Virus record (IMG/VR): IMGVR_UViG_3300042564_001291
Coordinates: 1-31,070 of that record
DNA from: a virus
Direction: 5' to 3' (one strand)
Length of the DNA stretch: 31,070 bases
This document shows positions 9,028 through 27,912 of this stretch, piece by piece. The notes beneath the pieces were generated by a model that saw only the letters and a program-made list of their open reading frames with translations, ran no database searches and was not told the DNA's origin. The translations under genes and the position numbers were made by a program. Position 1 is the stretch's first letter; every line of letters begins with the position of its first letter.

Positions 9028-9414
9028 ATGGCCAACGGAGTATACATAAACATTAATTACCCCTTCAAAGATAGTCCTAAAGGGTTTTTCTTAGACTTAA
9101 CGGAAACTGATAACAAAGCGGTTAAAGCTGATTTGTTACACTTACTATTAACTAGAAAAGGACAAAGACTCTATAACCCAGAATTTGGGACTAGTTTATT
9201 AGAATACATATACGAACCCTATGACGGTTTAACATTTAATGATGTTAAAAACGAAATAGAAACATCGGTTAAAAAATACTTACCACAAGTTAGGTTAAAT
9301 GATTTGACAGTAGAACCATCACCTTTGAATGAATATGCTGTTTTAGTTACAATAGATTACACAATAACAGATGATATATTTGAATCATCTGACTTAATAC
9401 AAATAAATTTATAA
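9028..9414 (+). CDS. 25: gp25-like baseplate wedge protein
   Basis: This 128-residue protein matches the gp25/GPW family of baseplate wedge proteins in contractile tails, which join the sheath initiator region to the inner baseplate. The family hallmark is in residues 36-64: LLHLLLTRKGQRLYNPEFGT followed by SLLEYIYEP, corresponding to the usual LxTxxGxRxxxPxFGxxLxxxxFEP. Its length is similar to T4 gp25 (132). A C-terminal beta region (YAVLVTIDYTI) follows. It is directly followed, one base after its stop codon, by the gp6-like gene; the same gp25-gp6 adjacency exists in T4. It opens the virion operon after the terminator at 8940-8968. Start: ATG after gaacatt, the first in frame. Confidence 0.9.
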   Translation: MANGVYININYPFKDSPKGFFLDLTETDNKAVKADLLHLLLTRKGQRLYNPEFGTSLLEYIYEPYDGLTFNDVKNEIETSVKKYLPQVRLNDLTVEPSPLNEYAVLVTIDYTITDDIFESSDLIQINL

Positions 9415-9415
9415 A

Positions 9416-11236
9416 ATGGCAAACCAAGGAATAAATTACGGTTACAGAAACTTTGCAGACATAAGAAGCGGTTTAGTCGATATGGCTAGACAATATTACC
9501 CAGATATTTTTAATGATTTTAATGATGCGTCTGTAGGTATGATGTTATTAGAATTAAATGCAGCTGTTGGTGATATGCTTTCTTTTAACACTGATAGAAT
9601 GTTTCAAGAAACTCAAATAGATTATGCACAGCAAACTAAATCCGTTTTATCTATGGCTAGAACGTTTGGTTTAAAAATTCCTGGTAAAAGACCATCTGTA
9701 ACAATAGTCGATTTTAGTGTTACAGTTCCAGTTCTAGGTGATTCATTTGACATTTCATACGCACCAATCATTAACGCTGGTTCTCAAGTTACAGGTGCTG
9801 GTAAAATATTTGAAAATTTATACGATATAGATTTTTCAAATCCATTCAACACTAATGGTATACCTAACAGATTAATTATACCAAACTTTAATTCAAATGG
9901 AACTCTTATAAATTATACTCTAACTAAAAGAGAAATAGTTACAAATGGTTTTACTAGAATCTTTAAAAAAGTAATCAATATTTCAGATGTAAGACCATTT
10001 TTAGAAGTAATTTTACCAGAAGATAATGTTTTATCAATAGATTCAATTATTACCTTAGATGGTACTAATATAAACACAATACCATCATTAAGTCAGTTTT
10101 CAAACCAAAGTCTTAGATGGTATGAAGTTGATGCGTTAGCTGAAAATAAAGTTTTTGTTGAGGATTCTAATAAAATAACTGATAATTCAGGTGTAAAACC
10201 AGGTAAATGGATTACAGTTGATAAAAAATTTATTACTGAATATACCGATTTAGGTTTTACAAAAATAATATTTGGTTCTGGTACTAAAGACACTAGTAGT
10301 TTATGTGATTTTGATTCAAACATTCCTTTAGTTAATCAAATAGGTGATTTTATAAATAATTTCTCTTTAGGTCAAACACCAACAGCAAACACAACGATGT
10401 TTATTAAATATAGAGTTGGTGGTGGTTCAGATACAAATGTTGGACCTAATGTTTTAAAGAGTGTTGGTTTATTAAACTTTACAATAAATGGTGCTAATAA
10501 AAATACAAATTTAGCTGTTAAAAACTCTTTAACTGTAAATAATTCATTCCCAGCACTTGGTGGTAGAAATGCACCTAGCGTTGATGAAATTAGATACATG
10601 ACAAAATATAACTTTGCATCACAAAATAGAGCGGTTACCATTAAGGATTACCAAGCTATTATTTCTAAAATGCCGAGTCAATTTGGAGTACCATTCAGAA
10701 TGGGTGTAATGGAAGAACAAAACAAAATTAAAATTTACACAATAGGTTTAGACCAGTTTAATAAATTGAATAACAATTCAACTAGCGCACTAAGAGATAA
10801 TATGGCAACATATTTATCAGATTTTAGAATGATGAATGATTACGTTCAAATAACTGATGGTAAAATCATAAACTTAAGTTTTGAAATAGATTTATATATC
10901 GATAAAAAACAACCTCAAGCACAGATTATTTCTGAAGTTATTAACAATGTTACTACTTATCTAGATGTCAATAAATATGATATGGGTGATAATGTTTATT
11001 TATCTCCTATGATTGAAACAATTAATAATGTTGGTGGTGTTTTAAACGTAATTGATGTAAGGGTTTATAACAAAGTAGGTGAGGGTAAATATAGTTTAAA
11101 TGAAATTTCACAACCATATTTAGACACTGAAACTAGACAAATAGATATCAGTGGTGAATATACATTATTCGGAGAACCGACTTCAATGTTTGAAATAAAA
11201 TATCCAACAACAGATATTATGGTTAGGGTTAAATAA
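9416..11236 (+). CDS. 6: gp6-like baseplate wedge protein (baseplate J family)
   Basis: This 606-residue protein resembles T4 gp6/baseplate J, the wedge protein that forms the inner ring of contractile baseplates. The N-terminal segment at 34-60 (DFNDASVGMMLLELNAAVGD then MLSFNTD) and the following ARTFGLKIPGKRPS (81-94) are typical of the T4-like gp6 entry domain. Near 386-425, PSVDEIRYMTKYNFASQNRA and VTIKDYQAIISKMP match the baseplate-J segment that usually reads xEIKxxAPxxFxxxxRAVTxxDYxxLV. The C-terminal part from about 470 (INLSFEIDLYIDKKQPQAQI, then LDVNKYDMGDNVYLSPMIE) matches the closing beta-alpha domain of this family. It is close in length to T4 gp6 (660). Its place right after gp25 supports the call. 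Confidence 0.87.
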   Translation: MANQGINYGYRNFADIRSGLVDMARQYYPDIFNDFNDASVGMMLLELNAAVGDMLSFNTDRMFQETQIDYAQQTKSVLSMARTFGLKIPGKRPSVTIVDFSVTVPVLGDSFDISYAPIINAGSQVTGAGKIFENLYDIDFSNPFNTNGIPNRLIIPNFNSNGTLINYTLTKREIVTNGFTRIFKKVINISDVRPFLEVILPEDNVLSIDSIITLDGTNINTIPSLSQFSNQSLRWYEVDALAENKVFVEDSNKITDNSGVKPGKWITVDKKFITEYTDLGFTKIIFGSGTKDTSSLCDFDSNIPLVNQIGDFINNFSLGQTPTANTTMFIKYRVGGGSDTNVGPNVLKSVGLLNFTINGANKNTNLAVKNSLTVNNSFPALGGRNAPSVDEIRYMTKYNFASQNRAVTIKDYQAIISKMPSQFGVPFRMGVMEEQNKIKIYTIGLDQFNKLNNNSTSALRDNMATYLSDFRMMNDYVQITDGKIINLSFEIDLYIDKKQPQAQIISEVINNVTTYLDVNKYDMGDNVYLSPMIETINNVGGVLNVIDVRVYNKVGEGKYSLNEISQPYLDTETRQIDISGEYTLFGEPTSMFEIKYPTTDIMVRVK

Positions 11237-11648: not shown

Positions 11649-14600
11649 ATGTCAAATAACAGTATAAGAATAAGAACAACAACAGACAATAAGGATAAAT
11701 TTGTCAAAGTAAAATTAGACCAAGAATTTGATTTTATTGAAGTTTTATCACTTAAAATCACACAAGAAGAAGTTTATAGAAATTTTTGTGCTGATTATGG
11801 TGTTGTTGTTGGTAGAGTGTTTATAAATAATGGGTTTGGTATCCCTAATGCTAGGGTTAGTATTTTTATACCTATAGATGATATAGATAAAAATGACCCA
11901 ATACTAAAAGGGTTGTATCCTTATGAGCTAGTTACCGATAAAGATATAGATGGTAAAAGATATAACCTTCTACCAAAAAATAGTGAGACTGATAATGATT
12001 GTTTCACACCAGTTGGTACTTTTCCAAACAAAAGAGAAGTTTTAGACGACCCAGAAATGGGCCATGTTTATTGTAAATATTATAAATTTACCACATCGAC
12101 AAACTATGCTGGTGATTATATGATATTTGGTGTACCAGTTGGTAATTATACTGTTCATGTTGACGCGGACATTTCTGATATAGGTATAGCCTCACAGAGA
12201 CCTTACGACAGCATTAGTCAAGGAGCACCTATCCAAATGTTTGATAGTCCAACAAAATTTAAAGGCGGTACTAATTTAGATAAACTAGTACAAGTAAAAA
12301 CAGTAAATGCTGGTGTTAATGTTCAACCATTTTGGGGTTCTGTTGAAAATTGTGAAATCGGTATAAGTAGAATAGATTTAGACTTAAATTACACTATAAC
12401 ACCTTCAGCTATCTTTATGGGTGGTGCCTTTGGTGATAGCGATAAAAATAGTGTTAACAAAAATTGTAGACCTAGAAAAAGCATGGGTAAAATTTGTGAA
12501 CAAAACACTAGCGAAGGAACTATTGAAATGATACGAAAAACCCTAGATGGTAAAATAGAAAAATTAGATATTGAGGGTGGTCGTTTAATGGATGAAAATG
12601 GTTCATGGGCCTATCAAGTACCTATGAACTTAGATTATTATTATACAAACGAATTTGGTGATTTAGTATTATCAGAAGACCCAAATAAAGGTATACCTAC
12701 TAGAGCTAATGTTAGGTTTAAAATTGCTATGGATGAAAGTGGTGGTTTAGGTAGACTTAGAACAAAAGCGAATTATCTAATCCCACACAACCCAACAGCT
12801 GGTAAACCAGATGAGATTGATTATGAATTTGGTGAATTAACCAAAGACAGTAGTTTTAGAGATTTATATTGGAATAAAATTTATTCAGTTTCTAACTTCA
12901 TATCTAGATATCAAAAAAATAAAAGTTTTAGCGCAGTTAAAAATAGAAATTTTGTTGGGTTAAAAGATGTTGATGATTGTGTTGGAGATAAATTACCTGT
13001 ACCTTTTAATAGGGTTAATACAGTGTTTAACCCATTGTTTTTTATTATATGTTTAATTATGAAGATTATCGAGTTTATAATGTTTATTATAAATTCGACT
13101 ATTATTGTTATAGTAAATGCAATTGTAAGTGTAATTAGAAGTATTTTAGGTCTTTTATGTAGTGCGCATAGAAAATTAAAGAAAATTGGTATTAGATTTT
13201 TTAAAATTTTCTGTACTTTATATGATAGGGTTAACTATGTCCCATGTTTATACGCTAAATGTCCTTATGAGGAATCTTTTGTTTATTACTTTGCGCCAGG
13301 TTGTTCAGGAAAAGGTAAAGATAGAATAGATGACGATGGCGTACCAGTAAAAACAACTTTAGGGTTATTATCTAATTGTATTGCTGCTTCTATGGCAGAA
13401 GCTCTTAACTTATTTCAATTTGATTTTTATAATGATTGGTTAAATGGTTCGTTATATTATTATTTAATAAAATTTAAAAAAAGACGTAGACAAGAAAAAT
13501 ATTGTAATTATGATTGTTCTGGTGGTGATTGTAAATCAAGTATGCTTATAGACACATGTTATACCGATGAAAATAGTTATAAGAGTACAAGTTTTAGAGA
13601 AGGTGTTGTTAAAAAATACAACAACGAATTATTCTACGCCCCATCTAACAAAACAGCAACAGTTAAATTATACGCAACTGAAATTATTAATCTAGGTTCT
13701 GTTTTTAATTGTGATTGGCAAGGGGTACCTAAAATTCAAAATTATTTGGTACCAACAACATATATTATCCCACCAATAATCGATGAATATTCTGATGAAG
13801 ACCCTAGTTGGACAGAAACTAGTGGACAAGTAGATATTGGGCGTGGTTTTGGTGGTGTATTTTTTGATATATCATGTGCTGGTTTATCTTCAGATAAACA
13901 ACAATGCTTAAATATAAGACATGCATGTGAATTTGGTGTTGACTTAGACGAAATAGATGAAACTGATAATGGAGTGGTTTTACAACCAAATCACATTATA
14001 GGTTCTGCTGAAATAAATTCAGAATATGGTAAATACGTTAGAGATGTTTTCTTTTTATTAAATAATGTGACAAATAATATAAACGTAAATTTAAACCCAT
14101 CACCAACAACTAATTTTAATACAAATAATGTGGGTGACTACAATTTCGCATTAAGTAGCGACAATGGTAGTGATTATGTTAATTTTAGAGGTTATTTGGA
14201 TAATAGTTCGTTTTCGCAACCTAAACATTCTTATTATTTCTATTTTGGGTCAACTCCAGGTTCAACTGGTTTAGACAAAATGAATAACAATTTTTTCACT
14301 AAATGTTTTCCAACATTAACCGTTGAATTTTTTATTCGTATTGATAATACTGATGCTATTAGTGCTAACAATGTTAATGATGGTAGTGCTACTTTTACAA
14401 TAGTATCTGGCGTTGGTCCGTTTACTTATATTGTAAGTGGTCCTAATGGGTATAATTCTAGTGGAATATTAACAGAACCAAATCTAACACAATCGTTAAA
14501 TGGTTTAGCACAAGGTTCTTATATCATTAACGTTACAGACTCTTCTGGCGTTTCTATTTCACAATCATTTGAAATTTCAGGACCAACACCTTTATATGCA

Positions 14601-16115
14601 TCGGCAATTGTTAGTGAAAATAACACAGCAATTTCATCACCGTATAATGGGCAAATAACAATAACATCTGTTGGTGGTGGTAATGGTACTTATACTGCAT
14701 CGTTATACAATTCTAGTAATTCATTAGTATCGATAGGAACGTGTCAAGCAAACGGTGCTTCATCAAACCCGACTTCAGTTACCCAAACACCTATAAGTTT
14801 TTGTGGCTTACCTTCGGATATATTAACAAATACTAGTTCAACACATAGTGGTCATACTGGTTACTATATTATTGTGAAAGATACAAGTTCACCACAACAA
14901 CAATATATTATATACGATTTAAATGTTGGTGGTGTTACTGGATTAAATATTGTAATAACTTCTATAAACCCAACTTGTTTTGACTCAAGTAATGGTAAAA
15001 TAACCATGGCAATTACAGGTGGTATTGAACCATATTTAATTGAAACAACATTAAATAACGAACCATTGTTCAATGGTTTAACTTCTAATATTTTAAGTCA
15101 AGGTATTTACACAACAACTGTTACTGATAGTTCATCACCTGCTCAAATAGTGACAAGAACCACAACTCTTTTTCCTACTGAACCAGAAATGAAACTTGAA
15201 CCAGACTTAGTTTTATTACCACAACAGTGTGACCCTAATAATTACACAATCTATTTAGATGTAATTAACGGTGGTCAAAATAATCTAAATCAAAATTACA
15301 CACAAGTAAATGGTGTTACTCGTTGTTATTTACAATTTAATAATGATGGTAATGAAGATAGTAACGGTAACCCAATTTGGACTACACCACAACCGTTTAC
15401 ATATTTAAATAACCCTACAGCTTCTGGACCTTTTAGAGTTAAAGTGACAATACCTAGAAATAGTATAACAGCAGGTGTTGCTATTAGGTTATCTAACTCA
15501 CAAGGTACATGTGGTAGTAATTATAGTGAAGATGGGACAGATTTTGATGTTTCACAAATGAAATTACCACCAAACGTATTATCTGTTGATGTTAATAATG
15601 TGGATAATACTAGACAATGTGAGATTAATTTTGTTACATTCAAATTTAATATAAGTCATTTAAATGTGTTTGCAACATATAGAGCACCATATATTTTGGA
15701 ATATCAAATAGCTGGACAAACTGGTGTGTTCGGAACACCGACAATATATCAAACATCTATAACACAAAACCAACAACCTATTAGAATTTCGGTACCAAGA
15801 AATTCATCAAATTTACCAAGTAATAGATGTAGTATTAAATTTAGAGTAACAGATAATGTAAATTGTCAATCAACATGGTTAACGATAAGTAGTATAACTC
15901 TACCAACAAATTCAATAACACCAAACTGGTCTCAAAGTACTGTAAGTGGTCAATGTATTAGAAGTTATACGTTATCTGGAGGTATCGCACCATACACGGT
16001 AACTAATGGTTTCTTACCAAACACACCATACGTAGTGTCATGTCAACCAAACGCTACTAGTGTTAGTGGATTAGATAATGTTGGTTGTCCATTTAATTTT
16101 ACATATACACAATAA
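11649..16115 (+). CDS. Giant baseplate/tail protein with internal membrane-like segment and SprB-like repeats
   Basis: I cannot assign this 1488-residue protein to a named T4 gene; its position after gp25 and gp6 is where T4 has gp7. N-terminal residues 1-150 look like an Ig/carboxypeptidase-regulatory beta sandwich (VVVGRVFINNGFGIPNARVS, then DYMIFGVPVGNYTVHVD). Residues about 463-505 are strikingly hydrophobic (LFFIICLIM, then FIMFIINSTIIVIVNAIVSV) and are followed by basic HRKLKKIGIR, like a membrane or pore segment. Cysteine clusters follow (CNYDCSGGDCKSS). From about 899 there are SprB-like repeats with the GG-x-x-P-[YF] motif at 921-925, 1009-1015, 1124-1129 and 1444-1449. The third copy has the typical NPTCFDSSNGKI and YTTTVTDS features. 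A wedge, hub or fibre-network role is probable. Confidence 0.82.
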   Translation: MSNNSIRIRTTTDNKDKFVKVKLDQEFDFIEVLSLKITQEEVYRNFCADYGVVVGRVFINNGFGIPNARVSIFIPIDDIDKNDPILKGLYPYELVTDKDIDGKRYNLLPKNSETDNDCFTPVGTFPNKREVLDDPEMGHVYCKYYKFTTSTNYAGDYMIFGVPVGNYTVHVDADISDIGIASQRPYDSISQGAPIQMFDSPTKFKGGTNLDKLVQVKTVNAGVNVQPFWGSVENCEIGISRIDLDLNYTITPSAIFMGGAFGDSDKNSVNKNCRPRKSMGKICEQNTSEGTIEMIRKTLDGKIEKLDIEGGRLMDENGSWAYQVPMNLDYYYTNEFGDLVLSEDPNKGIPTRANVRFKIAMDESGGLGRLRTKANYLIPHNPTAGKPDEIDYEFGELTKDSSFRDLYWNKIYSVSNFISRYQKNKSFSAVKNRNFVGLKDVDDCVGDKLPVPFNRVNTVFNPLFFIICLIMKIIEFIMFIINSTIIVIVNAIVSVIRSILGLLCSAHRKLKKIGIRFFKIFCTLYDRVNYVPCLYAKCPYEESFVYYFAPGCSGKGKDRIDDDGVPVKTTLGLLSNCIAASMAEALNLFQFDFYNDWLNGSLYYYLIKFKKRRRQEKYCNYDCSGGDCKSSMLIDTCYTDENSYKSTSFREGVVKKYNNELFYAPSNKTATVKLYATEIINLGSVFNCDWQGVPKIQNYLVPTTYIIPPIIDEYSDEDPSWTETSGQVDIGRGFGGVFFDISCAGLSSDKQQCLNIRHACEFGVDLDEIDETDNGVVLQPNHIIGSAEINSEYGKYVRDVFFLLNNVTNNINVNLNPSPTTNFNTNNVGDYNFALSSDNGSDYVNFRGYLDNSSFSQPKHSYYFYFGSTPGSTGLDKMNNNFFTKCFPTLTVEFFIRIDNTDAISANNVNDGSATFTIVSGVGPFTYIVSGPNGYNSSGILTEPNLTQSLNGLAQGSYIINVTDSSGVSISQSFEISGPTPLYASAIVSENNTAISSPYNGQITITSVGGGNGTYTASLYNSSNSLVSIGTCQANGASSNPTSVTQTPISFCGLPSDILTNTSSTHSGHTGYYIIVKDTSSPQQQYIIYDLNVGGVTGLNIVITSINPTCFDSSNGKITMAITGGIEPYLIETTLNNEPLFNGLTSNILSQGIYTTTVTDSSSPAQIVTRTTTLFPTEPEMKLEPDLVLLPQQCDPNNYTIYLDVINGGQNNLNQNYTQVNGVTRCYLQFNNDGNEDSNGNPIWTTPQPFTYLNNPTASGPFRVKVTIPRNSITAGVAIRLSNSQGTCGSNYSEDGTDFDVSQMKLPPNVLSVDVNNVDNTRQCEINFVTFKFNISHLNVFATYRAPYILEYQIAGQTGVFGTPTIYQTSITQNQQPIRISVPRNSSNLPSNRCSIKFRVTDNVNCQSTWLTISSITLPTNSITPNWSQSTVSGQCIRSYTLSGGIAPYTVTNGFLPNTPYVVSCQPNATSVSGLDNVGCPFNFTYTQ
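14343..15179 (+). repeat. Tandem SprB-like repeats encoded in the giant tail protein
   Basis: Three consecutive units of about 80-120 residues (about 899-980, 981-1097, 1098-1177) each contain a [G]xxx[P/T][YF]T core and end in a xxY.I.V.DSS-type strand: GSYIINVTDSSG, TGYYIIVKDTSS, QGIYTTTVTDSS. This is the layout of the SprB repeat found in Flavobacterium gliding adhesins (CxGxxNGxIxVxxxGGxxPYxYxW...GxYxVxVTDxxG). A further partial copy lies at the C-terminus (GGIAPY, bases 15978-15995). The units are diverged at DNA level. Confidence 0.65.
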
Positions 16116-20587: not shown

Positions 20588-23500
20588 ATGGCTAACGAAA
20601 ACATAAAAGTTGCTGGGTATGTTAAAAAAACAATATACAACGGTAACATAGAATATAGAAATTACAATCCAGACCTTGTAGGTTTACAACTTACTAGCGA
20701 TGGTGGTACTCCATTATTTACAATGGGTAATTTCAATATTACAACTAATGTAGACCCTAAGACAGATAAGAATTTTATAACAAAACAATTTTCTGATTTT
20801 GTAACATTAGATGGGTTAAACTTGACAGTTAGCCAAAGTGAAACATTATTAAATAATAACGCGACAGTTTTTTTAAATGTTGATAAATCAAAATTATCAT
20901 ACTACGCAACATTTGGTTCATTAACTGAATTTATGCGTGTTGGTTTGGAAAATATAATAATTAACTGGCCAGCATCTATTTATACGTCACCAATTAAAAC
21001 CTTAGACACTGGTTTTGAAATAACTGGTAATACTTATGAAAATTATTCTTACAATGAAATAACAAACGTAGCATCATTTAGAATACCTACTAATTTTATT
21101 GTTAATCCATACAATATAAATTATTTAACAAACGGTGATATTAGCGGTACTTTTAACGAATCAAACACGTTAAGAAATTTGGTAACAAACTATGATTCAT
21201 ATGCGTTATTATATAATACAGTAGAATATGATGTAATTGGTTTTACTGGTACAACTAGTACTGTAAATGACTACATATATTTTGAAATTAAAAACAACCC
21301 ATTTACCGCAACCAGTAGTACGTTTAGTTTTCACATTAAACCAAAAAGTATAATTTGTGATAACTTTTTTAACACGTTAGATGAATTTGAATATTATTTA
21401 TTAAATAGACAATCATTACCTATATACACTGCAACATTTAAATATCCGTTAAGAACTGATTTTGGTGTTTTGTTATACACAGAAACTTCTCTAACATGGC
21501 CTACAACGGATGGTTATAACTTAGATTATTCAACCGATTATTACGAAACGTATGCTACTTCATTATTTAATTTAGCTAATGACAGTGATTTAATCAACAG
21601 TAATTTAATGACTAGATTTTTAGTTAGTGAATCTATTACTGGTTTTGATACGATGCCATATTATTTATCTGACGAAGACCAAGATACTTCTGGTGGTAAA
21701 GTTAATAAATTACTTAACATTTATGGTGTTTCTTACGATGATTTAAATAGATACATTGAAGGTATTTCATTTGCAAATACCGTTACATATAATAAATTAG
21801 ATAACACACCAGATGTTTATTTAAAAAACATAGCTAGAGTTATGGGTTGGGAGTTAATAGAATCGGTTATAAGCAACGATTTATTAACAGACTATATAAA
21901 GTCTAGTGAATCATCTTTTAGTGGCCAATCGGTAGGTTTAACACCAGTAGAAGCTGATATTGAATTATGGAGAAGAATAATACTAAACACACCATGGATT
22001 TGGAAATCAAAGGGTACTAGAAAAACTATTGAGTTTTTACTTAGATTTATAGGAACCCCAAATGGTTTGATTACATTCAATGAACATGTATATAAAGCAG
22101 ATAAACCAATAGATATGGAATTGTTCTTAACAATTTTGGAATTAAATGGTTTAGATACTGATATTACAAATTATCCAGTTGACAGTGAAGGTTATCCTAG
22201 ATTTTTCGCTGATACAAATGACATGTATTTTCAAGGTAATGGTTTATGGTATAGAGAAACCAGTGGTGTTAATTCTGTTTTAGATATTACAGCTGGTAAT
22301 AACCCACATATAGGTCCTTATGATAGAGGTTATAAATACTTTAATCAATTAAGAACACTTATCCCAAATTTTACACCAGTAACAATAACATCAAATACCG
22401 TTAATACAACATCTCAAGATTTGTTTACAAATTATAACACAGGTGAGATTACTGATTATGATGGGCCTATATATGTAGATGTTCAAAATTTAAATGGTTC
22501 TAATTTATCTGATTGTATAACATACACAACAGAAATAATTAAAGACCCAAAACCAGAAGATATAATAACTGAATGTGGTTGTCCATGTGAATCTATAAAA
22601 GATGAATCTTTAAGTGTTTGTTTAAAAACAGAAAAAACACCAATAGTTGAAGATGAATGTTATGCTAGTTATACTGAAGACCCAAAAACAGGTTTATATG
22701 TATTTGTACAATATTATGAAGACAATCAAGGTAATAATACAAATACTATCTATAAAACAGAATTTATAGATAGGGACTGTTGTTCAGCACCACCAATTGA
22801 AGGTTTCTCTATGTATAATGATGTTTATAATAGTGTTGAAGATACTATTTCTTCAGGTTATGTATGTTGTAAAAAAGGTGTCGATTGTGCGTGTAATGTT
22901 GCTAAAGATTGGGTTATTTCACAATCTCCAATACAAATAAATGGTGAAAATTATTTAAAATTTATAACACTTAACGGTTTTGGAAATAATGTTGTTGTTG
23001 GTGCTGACCCTAGTCTTTGTCCAAATGTTTATTCAGCAGGTTACGGTCAACTATGGGCAACACGTGTAAATAATATTATAGACCCATACACTGGTTTAGT
23101 TGGTTTTGGTTGTAAATTAACACAATATGGTTTAGCGAATATTAATATATTATATACAGCTTATCAAGACAAAATTAAAAAAGACGCAGGGTGTGGATAT
23201 GTTTTCCCAGATGTAGAATCAGAACCAGAACCAGTATCATGTATAGCTCCAACATTAACCCAAGTGGCATGGCAAGACTATGGTGGTTATAGATATATAT
23301 GGACACTACAACAAAGACCATGTAATAGAGGGACACTTAGATTACAATATTCTTTAAACGGCATTGATTTTAGCGATTTTGAGATTGAAACCAGCACAAA
23401 CCCATCAATCGATGGTTCATTAGCTTATACAGTTTCAATTGATGATAATCTTTTTGATGGTTTGTTTGTTTATTTTAGATTAAATGTGACATATGAAATA

Positions 23501-23939: not shown

Positions 23940-26900
23940 ATGCCTTTAACAAAACAAGATATTACTGATGTAAATGATAAATGTACTAAGATTTGGAGTA
24001 ACATATTAAACTATGGTGGGAATATAGTGTATGTACCAGATGGTACAATATATGCTGATATAGCTAATGGTAATGGAACGTTTACTAATTACGAAATAAC
24101 ACAAACGTGTTGTAAAATATTAGCAAAATCAGTTACTGATAACCCAAACACACCTAGCAATGTTAACCCACAGAATATATACTTTGATTTAGATGAACAA
24201 AAATGTAGATGGTCAGAAAAACCTAAAAATGCATGCTCAACTGAAAACACACCAATTAAAATAGTGTTAAACCCAGTTGGTAATGATGGCGCGTTTTTTA
24301 CATTAACTGAAAACGATACATGTTCTTTAAAAGTTAAATTTAATTATTTATTTAAAATAAAATGTGAAGATTTAGTAAATGTTATAAAATTTGCTGAAGC
24401 GGTAGGTCTTACCTCTAGTTCTGGTGCTGCTTCAATTGCCGCTAGAGATATTTATCAATCAAAATTTGAATTAGAATCAAATTCTTTTGATATAAATAAC
24501 GAATTAGATAATTTAGTACAACAAAACGCTAAATTAAATTATTCTATTGTATGTAATGAATTCCCAACAAACGATGAAGTTCTTCAATCAACACCAGAAA
24601 CAAAAATAAGTGCTTCACAAACTTTACCGTTTACTAACACTGGATTTGGTTCATTAACAAACACAACCGATTTATCGTTAACAAATACTAAAGTAGGTCC
24701 AGTATACAAAACAAAAACTGTTAATTTTTGTTTAACTGAAATTGGCTTAGATAGTTGGAGACAAGTAATTGGTGAAGATAATTATTCAGGTTTTATAAAC
24801 GGTATTGCTGATAGTTACACATGTTTAGATGTGGTGTCTATATATGAGTTAAACAAAACTGCTGTATTAAACAACCAACCAGAATTATTATTTGAATGTA
24901 ACACACCTTTCGGTGAAAAAACTAGAACATTAAATAGAATTGAAGAATTATCTAAACTTAAAATAGAAAACAAAACAAAACAAGACAATGTTGATGTTAA
25001 AATTAAAAATATAACAGATATAAAAGACACAAACGTTTGCTCAACGTTATTAGGTCAATTTGAAAATTTAAGCGCAACAGTAACCTTAGACTTAGTAAAT
25101 GATAACGGTACAACAACTCAAATCAATTCAGAAACTCTTTTTAATCGAATAGGTAACTTATATAATTATTTAAGTGAAAATACAGATAACAGTGGGTTTC
25201 TTGTATGTGGTGAAGCGTCAGAAACAGAAACATGGGCATCTGGGTGTACTGGTTTAATTTATCCAGAATTTACAAATGGTGTTTTAACCGTTGACCCAGA
25301 ATCAGACAATATAAATGTGTCTATTTGTCAAATAGTTAAAGACATATTATATAGTGAATTATACAATAACTCAGGGTTAGTCTCAACATCTGATTTCAAT
25401 CAATCATTATCACCAAATGCGTTTAATTCAAATTGGTTAACATATGAAACAACAATTGATGACCAAGCTATAATAACTGGTATCACAAATAATCAAATAA
25501 AATTAAATGTGATAATCAACAGTTCATGTGGTAATTTTTGTTTATTGGTTGACCAAATTAATATGACAAAAGTTTGTGAAGACGCTAATAGAACAAATAT
25601 ATTTATTAGCCAATCACCAGGGTTTAATTTAACTAGAGTTATCGATAATAAAAAATCTTGGCTTCAAGCTGACTCATATACCGAAAGAGATTTCCACATT
25701 GGAAATTATAACGATGCTAATCAAATTCGTCAAACAGAATACACTGTTGATGAAGAAAGGTTAATATTAAACACTAAAGAAATAGATTTAACCATGAATA
25801 TGGCGTCAGCTATTGAAAATGATGTTTGGTGTTATTTGGTTGATAACCCTAATTTATTAACAGGTCAAACATGTAGTTCAAACACAAGTTTAACACCAAC
25901 AGATATTTATGGTAACCCAATCATTTTACCTACTGCGCAAACATTAACAGATGTGTCGGTGATTATAGGGGATGCTACAAACTATTTAGATAGTTGTATT
26001 GCGGCGACTTATCCAAAAATAGATATATGTTATCCAGAGATAGAAAACCAAGTATGTGGTGATACTTTAAAAATTTTATTAGATAATGGTAATAAAAGTC
26101 TTTGGGTTACATGTCAGGATGGGCAATTAGGTTTTTATTATATAAGCGCAAATACAAACACACAAAACACTATTTTTAATATAACACAATCTACCTTAGA
26201 CCCAATAAGTTTAAAAATAGATTTATTTAAATTGCGTGTTAGTGATGATGGTGGTGTATTTTATTCTGAAGATTGTTTAAGTGATATTTTAGTTAATTTT
26301 GTATTTAATGGTTCTAGTTTAGGTGCTTTAACTTCTTATATAGAAGTTATAAATGATTTTATCGTTCTAACTAAATCAGACCATCCGTTATATGAAGCTT
26401 TTTGGAACTCAGATGGTACGTGTAATTTTTGTAATAATACATGTGGTGATAAAAGGATTGATTTCTCTGGATTTATGTCAACAAATATATCTGAAATTAA
26501 AACGTTAGAATCATTTGATGATTTAATGACATCAGAATTAATTGATGTTAAAAATAGAAAAACACTTTCTAGCTACCCATCGCTTAGAGCAGTATATGAT
26601 AGGTATATGGATGCTACAGAATATGGTTTAACAAATAGTAATGAATTTGATTACTATAAGATGGACCAATTTACTAGTCTTGTAAAAACATATTGGGATG
26701 ATTTGATTGAACAAGTTGTTCCATCAACAACTATTTGGGGTAATGTTAAAGTTTATACAAACACCCTATTCGACCAACAAAAATTCAAGTATAGAAGTTA
26801 TACTACATTGTTATGTAACAGCCCTTTAAACTTTACAACATTACCAAGTCCGATAAATGGTTCTGACGGTGAATGTAAAGATATTGAAATAATAGTTCAA

Positions 26901-27611
26901 AATGTACAAACAACGTCAGGTGTTACGTCTTACACGTCAAATAAACAAACGTTTAATAGTGTTTGTATATCACAAATGAATTGGGGTTCTGAGTTTGTTG
27001 GTAATGTTGATATAAGAGATGGTAGTAATAATTATATTAATAACGATACTTTTTGTAATACCTGTGATAAAAATATTAGGTGGTATAACATGGTTGATAG
27101 ACCAGAATTTATAATGGAAGCTTTAGTGTGTTACCCTATTGGTACAACAGCAGTTACGTTTTCAATCAGTGCTTTAACAGTAAATGATACATCCTTCGTA
27201 ACTACACCTTTAAGTTCAACAACAATAACGCCTAATAATGTTAATTTTGTCAGAGCTGAAAATAACATCATATCTGGTTGTACTAGCGGTGGTATAACTG
27301 GTTGGACATACACTAATTTTGTTGATTTCTTAAACGACACTTTTACTAATTTAGATTTAACTGAATATAAAGCAATAATTTCCTTAAAAGAAAAACAAGG
27401 TGTGGGTAATGAGTGTAGTATGAATGGTTTTTATATAAGTTATCCTAAAAATGATACTTTTTCAATTGTAATTCAGAGTGATAGTGATGTTAGTACAATA
27501 TGTAATTATACAAATATAGGTCTTTTTCTTATAAAAGGTAATAAAAATTATTATTGTAGCACTGCCGACAATATAGGTTATGACTGTTTAAAAAATATCG
27601 TAAATGAATAA
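23940..27611 (+). CDS. Very large cysteine-rich virion-operon protein (1223 aa)
   Basis: I do not recognise this protein. It is exceptionally rich in cysteine (about 40) for a phage structural protein, with knuckle-like arrangements C828-x2-C831-x3-C835 and C1039-x2-C1042. Residues about 325-365 (TLNRIEELSKLKIENKTKQD) look like a coiled coil. The rest is mixed beta with many N, T, S and Y. The N-terminus (MPLTKQDITDVNDKCTKIWS) shows no signal peptide. It sits between the gpI-like gene and a minimal nucleotidyltransferase gene that overlaps its last eight bases. Size and position suggest a long peripheral baseplate or fibre-network protein. Cysteines may bind zinc or form disulphides once outside the cell; neither is shown by the sequence alone. 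Confidence 0.8.
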   Translation: MPLTKQDITDVNDKCTKIWSNILNYGGNIVYVPDGTIYADIANGNGTFTNYEITQTCCKILAKSVTDNPNTPSNVNPQNIYFDLDEQKCRWSEKPKNACSTENTPIKIVLNPVGNDGAFFTLTENDTCSLKVKFNYLFKIKCEDLVNVIKFAEAVGLTSSSGAASIAARDIYQSKFELESNSFDINNELDNLVQQNAKLNYSIVCNEFPTNDEVLQSTPETKISASQTLPFTNTGFGSLTNTTDLSLTNTKVGPVYKTKTVNFCLTEIGLDSWRQVIGEDNYSGFINGIADSYTCLDVVSIYELNKTAVLNNQPELLFECNTPFGEKTRTLNRIEELSKLKIENKTKQDNVDVKIKNITDIKDTNVCSTLLGQFENLSATVTLDLVNDNGTTTQINSETLFNRIGNLYNYLSENTDNSGFLVCGEASETETWASGCTGLIYPEFTNGVLTVDPESDNINVSICQIVKDILYSELYNNSGLVSTSDFNQSLSPNAFNSNWLTYETTIDDQAIITGITNNQIKLNVIINSSCGNFCLLVDQINMTKVCEDANRTNIFISQSPGFNLTRVIDNKKSWLQADSYTERDFHIGNYNDANQIRQTEYTVDEERLILNTKEIDLTMNMASAIENDVWCYLVDNPNLLTGQTCSSNTSLTPTDIYGNPIILPTAQTLTDVSVIIGDATNYLDSCIAATYPKIDICYPEIENQVCGDTLKILLDNGNKSLWVTCQDGQLGFYYISANTNTQNTIFNITQSTLDPISLKIDLFKLRVSDDGGVFYSEDCLSDILVNFVFNGSSLGALTSYIEVINDFIVLTKSDHPLYEAFWNSDGTCNFCNNTCGDKRIDFSGFMSTNISEIKTLESFDDLMTSELIDVKNRKTLSSYPSLRAVYDRYMDATEYGLTNSNEFDYYKMDQFTSLVKTYWDDLIEQVVPSTTIWGNVKVYTNTLFDQQKFKYRSYTTLLCNSPLNFTTLPSPINGSDGECKDIEIIVQNVQTTSGVTSYTSNKQTFNSVCISQMNWGSEFVGNVDIRDGSNNYINNDTFCNTCDKNIRWYNMVDRPEFIMEALVCYPIGTTAVTFSISALTVNDTSFVTTPLSSTTITPNNVNFVRAENNIISGCTSGGITGWTYTNFVDFLNDTFTNLDLTEYKAIISLKEKQGVGNECSMNGFYISYPKNDTFSIVIQSDSDVSTICNYTNIGLFLIKGNKNYYCSTADNIGYDCLKNIVNE

Positions 27612-27912
27612 AACAATAATAAAAGGTAGAGAAAGGTTAAATAGAGGTAAACTTAATAGTTTTGCTGAATTACCTATTGATAAACAAGAAATTTTTAAAA
27701 AAATAAAAGAAAGTTTAAAAAAATATTTAACTACTGAAGTTTTTGTTTTTGGTAGTTATAATCATGGTTATTGGGATGAAGAATCTGATTATGACGTTAT
27801 TGTATTTAATGAAATACACACCGACATTAGAGATAAAATTAGAGAAGAAGTTGGTGTTAAAGTGGATGTAATGTTTGGTAAAAATAACATAGGATATATT
27901 CCAATACCATAA
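27604..27912 (+). CDS. Stand-alone minimal nucleotidyltransferase (MNT/MntA-like)
   Basis: This 102-residue protein has the minimal nucleotidyltransferase fold of the DNA polymerase beta superfamily. The signature is VFVFGS (46-51), ten residues, then D62-Y-D64 (SDYDVIVF), which is exactly GSX10DXD. A third acidic residue follows at D88 (VKVDVMFG), completing the metal triad. Known members are MntA antitoxins, which AMPylate the HEPN toxin HepT, and small KNTase-like enzymes. Residues 1-40 are a basic helix region (IIKGRERLNRGK, DKQEIFKKIKESLKK). No HEPN gene is adjacent: both neighbours are large or unknown virion-operon genes. It overlaps the upstream gene by eight bases and so is made with the tail proteins. 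The substrate is unknown; a counter-defence role or modification of a tail protein are possibilities. Confidence 0.8.
   Translation: MNKTIIKGRERLNRGKLNSFAELPIDKQEIFKKIKESLKKYLTTEVFVFGSYNHGYWDEESDYDVIVFNEIHTDIRDKIREEVGVKVDVMFGKNNIGYIPIP

Follow-up and report, generated by a model that had tools for sequence, protein, structure and literature searches.

MNT genes are best known for encoding antitoxins against HEPN RNases. MntA uses the motif GSX10DXD to attach three AMPs to a HepT tyrosine, and its D71 is a Mg2+ ligand (PMC7641770). Pol-beta nucleotidyltransferases are also described as prevalent in jumbo phages, among them RlaP, which is described as acting alongside RNA ligases (PMC7824862). 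Another group of phage proteins, the tail-fibre chaperones T4 gp38, Mu Tfa and V22 gp27, is reported to be encoded directly downstream of the fibre gene (PMC7289586). The minimal MNT-type enzyme described here is linked instead to a tail-region domain of phages, which occurs on several carriers and in loci whose genes are otherwise unlike.

The window, i.e. the whole stretch of DNA that was analysed, is a virus record of 31,070 bases. It carries genes like gp32, UvsX, DnaB and ribonucleotide reductase, and then baseplate wedge genes (a gp25-like gene starting at 9028 and a gp6-like gene at 9416). Since contigs of 306 and 205 kb are among its close relatives, the window probably represents part of a large T4-like phage. 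A SprB repeat and a wedge protein of a Flavobacterium phage point to a host in Bacteroidota: a 1488-aa protein of the baseplate region (11649-16115) matched PF13573 with 31.9 bits (cut-off 28), and Flavobacterium phage immuto has a baseplate wedge protein with 27.5% identity. The features used below are as follows.

23940..27611, + strand: tail-region structural protein, 1223 aa, ending in X (assigned to the tail by synteny only)
27045..27608, + strand: domain X, 188 aa, the C-terminal part of the 1223-aa protein (profile and alignment; beside the enzyme or one gene away in 24 of 27 contigs)
27604..27611, + strand: overlap of the X-carrier stop with the enzyme start, 8 nt (ORF coordinates; presumably couples translation)
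27604..27912, + strand: nucleotidyltransferase gene, MNT-type, 102 aa (motif, Pfam profile, alignment and dN/dS)

An earlier note on this DNA had reported a complete 102-residue gene with GSX10DXD and a further acidic residue, overlapping a large upstream gene by 8 bases within a baseplate operon. Both the gene and the overlap were confirmed. The ORF at 27604-27912 (+) is complete, and its ATG start lies inside the last 8 nt of the 1223-aa ORF (23940-27611). The protein contains G50-S51, ten residues, D62-Y-D64, and D88. The words "baseplate operon" were apt, given the gp25- and gp6-like genes, while the label "tail gene" for the 1223-aa neighbour rests on synteny, because the Pfam scan of this protein gave no match and its PHROG matches were at chance level only.

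The window enzyme matched PF01909 (NTP_transf_2) with 36.3 bits (E 7.6e-9), above Pfam's curated cut-off of 21, and PF18765 with 29.8 bits (cut-off 26.9); PF01909 was also matched at E<=0.001 by 14 of 15 diverse members of the enzyme family. Judged by profile, these results show the enzyme to be a member of NTP_transf_2 with a predicted Pol-beta nucleotidyltransferase core. In four pairs dN/dS was 0.15, 0.10, 0.08 and 0.28, and one further pair differed by a single synonymous change, with no change of amino acid. This pattern of codon changes shows purifying selection on the enzyme gene. A chance ORF or a pseudogene was ruled out by the Pfam matches together with the low dN/dS.

Membership of the MntA type, which the earlier note had assumed, did not hold at the level of the curated model: the NCBIfam MntA model NF047752 scored 19.4 bits against the window enzyme, below its cut-off of 60. 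Of 17 family members, 12 were matched by this model at E<=0.01, the best with 3.3e-5. The comparison with MntA structures that the note had proposed, made here by sequence profile, gave Shewanella MntA as the closest solved structure (E 2.3e-4), in a match that begins at profile position 29. The PADLOC PDC-S09 models gave weak matches only, the best for the window enzyme being 26.2 bits. The structure model of the enzyme was shallow (4 sequences; pLDDT 58.5, pTM 0.52), and its S3/KH-like and other structure matches were set aside because the model was poor.

To place the enzyme among its relatives, viral contigs were scanned with the enzyme, its neighbours and successive alignments. Homologues were found in 26 contigs beyond the window, so that the window enzyme is a member of a phage enzyme family of 27 contigs. 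At the tabulated positions of an alignment of 20 sequences, with copies from near-identical contigs left out, R11, F20, L23, F31, G50, S51, G55, W57, S61, D64, I101 and P102 were invariant. The motif GSX10DXD was present in the window and 19 of 20 aligned sequences, the exception being locus L121 with NxD. The active-site residues proposed by the note were thus kept in part: G50, S51 and D64 in 20/20 and D62 in 19/20 (Asn in one), while position 88 was Asp in 14/20 and Asn in 6/20, five of the six Asn sequences coming from loci that bear X. Read from the alignment, position 88 appears equivalent to MntA D71. All 18 aligned sequences from X-bearing loci had GSX10DXD intact and the sole D62N came from an X-less locus; the intact motif speaks for catalysis, and D88N in 6/20 weakens the catalytic reading. 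The family also has an N-terminal segment, K.R.R..RG.L..F..LP...Q..F..IK (KGRxRxxRGxLxxF..LP...Q..F..IK in the window), and a C-terminal IP. Across the 20 aligned sequences both are about as conserved as the enzyme core, and by alignment they set the family apart from MntA.

No match was found when six enzyme queries and two X queries were run by tblastn against 50,697 phage records, and pattern-based scans of bacterial and archaeal genomes, which have limited sensitivity, gave no enzyme homologue. In the open-access PMC literature we found no paper on a tail-linked phage MNT or on the enzyme-X pair. Larger nucleotidyltransferase-like proteins occur elsewhere in two jumbo contigs, in both cases far from the tail genes: one of 284 aa in L010, a near-identical relative of the window (contig 3300032268_000832, near 22446-22595), and an open frame of 288 aa in L035 (contig 3300042502_001233, near 249402).

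Domain X is conserved, unnamed and previously undescribed. Its structure model was confident (pLDDT 83.2, pTM 0.84, 19 sequences), and comparison of this model with PDB and BFVD (Foldseek, VIA-align) gave no usable match, which is not taken as proof of a new fold. Two tyrosines, Y14 and Y89, are present in all 15 aligned X domains, and Y108 and Y130 in 14 of them.

The enzyme and X were found to be closely linked. In the 24 of 27 enzyme contigs mentioned above, window included, X adjoins the enzyme or lies one gene off, usually at the C-terminus of the preceding protein. An iterated HMM search covered 91 loci, each from a separate contig and many of them not long enough to span the site; it detected X in 21, 20 of them with the enzyme, and the enzyme occurred without X in 3. 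The site is spanned in 44 of 80 loci, where both were present in 13, X alone in 1, the enzyme alone in 0 and neither in 30. Dereplication to 32 spanning loci left 9 with both, 1 with X alone, 0 with the enzyme alone and 22 with neither (Fisher P 3.6e-7, kinship uncorrected). As for the conservation of the gene at this locus, which the note had proposed to look for, copies of 98-100% identity occupy this locus in four further contigs, but the gene is missing from most related phages, as the 22 loci with neither and the one with X alone illustrate. Thirty chosen contigs, three of them larger than 300 kb, were searched whole and gave X in 18, the enzyme in 20, both in 17 and neither in 9; these contigs were partly picked for bearing the pair, so the counts describe physical linkage and not prevalence. 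Each enzyme-bearing contig among them had one enzyme copy, which adjoined X or lay within ~1.3 kb of it where X was present. The X HMM had been built before the enzyme-only scan, which therefore served as a held-out check: the scan revealed two new lineages, L153 and L162/L163, and X lay directly upstream in both (E 1.5e-48 and 3.7e-38). A scan of contigs with X only gave 12 matches, all known before, 11 of them with the enzyme.

This near-constant neighbourhood suggests that the enzyme serves a tail protein and is not a free-standing anti-defence weapon. The earlier note had favoured the silencing of host HEPN toxins as one role. In line with its statement that no HEPN gene is adjacent, the four neighbouring proteins that were scanned gave no match to HEPN families. 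The HEPN family PF05168 was found in 0/4 and 0/15 phage records (overlapping sets) and the HepT-like family PF01934 in 0/10. A free-standing anti-HEPN role is therefore not supported, as searches of these records for two HEPN families found neither and the gene tracks a virion domain. A modified form of the idea is that the enzyme AMPylates HEPN RNases of the host and travels with X since HEPN sensors recognise X. It can draw on MntA being the nearest solved relative by sequence profile, on the patchy presence of the enzyme, as seen for arms-race genes, and on the existence of Tha, a HEPN RNase reported to be activated by minor tail proteins (PMC11087260). We consider it improbable: the two HEPN Pfam families are missing from the phage records searched, it is hard to see why a diffusible antitoxin should stay by one virion domain across several carriers, expression with the tail genes would presumably come late for defence, and nothing in the present results requires a HEPN sensor that recognises X.

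The other role raised by the note, action on a tail protein, was strengthened, with a change of target: the likely partner is X of the upstream protein and not the 80-aa protein encoded downstream. Among loci that span the site, the latter is encoded in 26 of the 31 that lack the enzyme and in 8 of the 13 that have it, and it was rejected as a special target.

The proteins that carry X are diverse. After X had been removed from 16 carriers, BLASTP at E<=1e-3 left six unconnected groups; the short carriers retain only 69-91 residues without X, so remote kinship among them may be missed by BLASTP.

Group 1: the 1223-aa type, 10 rows
Group 2: fusion with the 80-aa protein (L028)
Group 3: 1123-aa protein with a proline/threonine-rich linker (L153)
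Groups 4-6, short carriers: L127; L128 with L129; L130

Within the fifth group, the match between the carriers of L128 and L129 is 34% over 44 aa. The genomic settings also differ. L124, L126, L153 and L162/L163 have other tail genes in common with the window, whereas in L121/L122 and L127-L130 only X or the enzyme match window proteins (tblastn E<=1e-3, stretches of 9-12 kb). L130 seems to lie near packaging-type genes from a reading of its ORFs, of which Pfam named neither of the two tested. In L153 and L126, the region homologous to the middle of the window's 1223-aa protein comes to its end within a shorter gene, and the protein after it, a different one, carries X in L153; X thus seems to have switched carrier within one group of tail genes. 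The gene directly after the enzyme in L128 (6322-7569) encodes a GlcNAc-type glycosyltransferase (PF11397, 221 bits), near a glycine-rich protein (PF21722), and modification genes may cluster at tail adhesins. In L028, an ORF at 9644-10261 that we take, from its motif, to resemble an HNH-type endonuclease is inserted among the tail-region genes.

The spacing of the genes was more uniform. The X carrier lies directly upstream in 15 of 19 loci, and in each of these the enzyme gene begins either 1 nt past the carrier's stop or with an overlap of 1-13 nt (the 13-nt overlap presumes a GTG start). In L057 and L076, X stops ~45 residues short of the carrier's end. The remaining layouts were as follows. 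In L030, from the contig that also contains L112, X is missing from the upstream protein, the gap is 11 nt, and X lies just downstream, fused to the 80-aa protein. In L129, a 428-aa gene stands between X and the enzyme, with a gap of 2 nt. In the X-less loci L121 and L126, gaps of 15 and 34 nt precede the enzyme. The upstream protein of L030 (1531-4890) is a homologue of the 1223-aa protein in which another C-terminus, with repeats that read as resembling a beta-propeller, replaces X, and the enzyme still adjoins it. X copies fused to the conserved 80-aa protein were found at L028:5231-6001 and L112:17319-18089; through this fusion L028 has X twice and L112 has X on the far side of the enzyme.

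A C-terminal domain followed by a small overlapping gene, with the C-terminus of the upstream protein exchanged in one relative (L030/L112), recalls polymorphic toxins, in which case X would be an effector and the downstream gene would neutralise it during assembly. We regard such an effector and immunity pair as highly improbable. No set of catalytic residues is obvious in X, and searches of X against Pfam, PHROG and PDB sequences gave no toxin match, although divergent toxins could escape them. X is moreover duplicated in L028, L057 and L076, and it survives deletion of its partner.

The deletion was seen in contig 3300008450_000557 (L015/L026/L046), the one locus with X alone. This contig keeps the enzyme start overlapping the X carrier, followed by a 34-nt match to the enzyme 3' end with its stop. 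What is left is the start, about the last ten codons and the stop, and none of 5000 mononucleotide shuffles scored as well. The 34-nt remnant indicates that the enzyme was once present and was lost by internal deletion; X can thus persist without the enzyme, at least for a time. The converse, the enzyme without detectable X, was found in L121, L122 and L126 (three contigs, two with identical sequence), and in L121 and L126 X was missed also by an unfiltered HMM run and by hhalign. A strict one-to-one pair of enzyme and X is ruled out by these three contigs and the one with X alone. The variable site, the patchy presence and the one clean deletion would also suit a passenger, a moron or selfish gene that hitchhikes with an often-exchanged end of a tail protein. 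This is quite improbable in our view, for the enzyme is under purifying selection and is linked to X on several carriers, also where the other genes show no match to those of the window.

Distances of enzyme and X correlated (r 0.55, P 2e-4, n=15). In the subset with a marker (n=7), correlations were 0.72 for enzyme and X, 0.75 for X and the marker and 0.48 for the enzyme and the marker. X tracks the marker about as well as it tracks the enzyme in these seven loci, so that distances alone do not separate co-transfer from shared descent. On the best marker tree the enzyme changed 6 times, of which well-supported branches force 2 only.

A non-catalytic role in assembly accounts for the gene position equally well and is a serious rival, which we nevertheless hold to be rather unlikely. 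The enzyme fold would here be reused, perhaps binding a nucleotide but not transferring it, and would help the X end to fold or trimerise, or would cap it, in the manner of gp38 or Tfa. A site directly after the C-terminus of the protein suits the known fibre chaperones (PMC7289586), D88N in 6/20 and D62N in 1/20 suggest relaxed catalysis, and the family-specific N-terminal segment and C-terminal IP are conserved to the degree of the core. The invariance of G50, S51 and D64 and the near-invariance of D62, however, are more than a pure chaperone would need. There was no known tail chaperone family among the Pfam or PHROG matches of the enzyme, and X persists without the enzyme in one contig.

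Taken together, the enzyme gene overlaps or abuts the gene of the X carrier, co-occurs with X on several carriers and diverges in correlation with X. Our preferred reading, held with a probability of roughly 0.4, is that enzyme and X together make up a mobile virion cassette of two parts, with X as the target of the enzyme, which may attach a nucleotide to it. Against it stand the X-less enzymes in three contigs, X alone in one, the layouts of L030/L112 and L129, the two forced enzyme changes only, and the fact that X follows the marker as well in seven loci. The more specific proposal, that a phage protein nucleotidylyltransferase covalently decorates the tail domain X during assembly as part of a mobile adhesin-plus-modifier cassette, is tentative and somewhat doubtful. 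The enzyme itself is of a known minimal type, a PF01909 protein; the two-part unit with X is new.

Under the cassette reading, X is normally the C-terminal end of a tail-region protein, and the minimal Pol-beta-type enzyme is encoded directly after it. Translation of the X carrier and the enzyme would be coupled, the carrier would be part of the phage particle, and the enzyme would bind X. With NTP and Mg2+, it might then modify a conserved residue of X with one or more NMPs, for which Y14 and Y89 are candidates; since MntA AMPylates a tyrosine of HepT, transfer of a nucleotide to X is proposed by analogy. The modification may mature or alter the tail protein late in infection. To our knowledge, no phage tail protein is known so far to be modified enzymatically with nucleotides, so that this would be a first case.

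If the enzyme modifies X, phage tails would bear an unrecognised post-translational mark, with possible effects on assembly, on receptor binding or on escape from host sensing. A chaperone role would mean that a nucleotidyltransferase had been turned into a tail-assembly factor. Either way, an uncharacterised enzyme of large, uncultured bacterial viruses gains in X a specific and directly testable partner.

Compared with known systems, the unit resembles the type VII toxin-antitoxin system HEPN/MNT in that the enzyme, like MntA, is a minimal single-domain Pol-beta nucleotidyltransferase with GSX10DXD and the small partner in a two-gene unit. It differs in that the linked partner is a domain of the virion region while a HEPN partner was not found among the neighbours and records searched, in its extra conserved N-terminal segment and C-terminal IP, and in the third Asp, which is Asn in 6/20. 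Tha ties HEPN RNases to phage tail proteins (PMC11087260), but it is a prophage-encoded defence of another kind than the enzyme, and HEPN was not seen in the phage records searched. RlaP belongs to the same superfamily as the enzyme, but the gene described here has its place in the tail region, and its product is far smaller than the other nucleotidyltransferase of L010 (284 aa). With T4 gp38, Mu Tfa and V22 gp27 the enzyme shares its place as a small gene directly after a tail-protein gene (15/19 loci, the tail role of the carrier being assigned by synteny), but it differs from them by its nucleotidyltransferase core with an almost invariant active-site motif.
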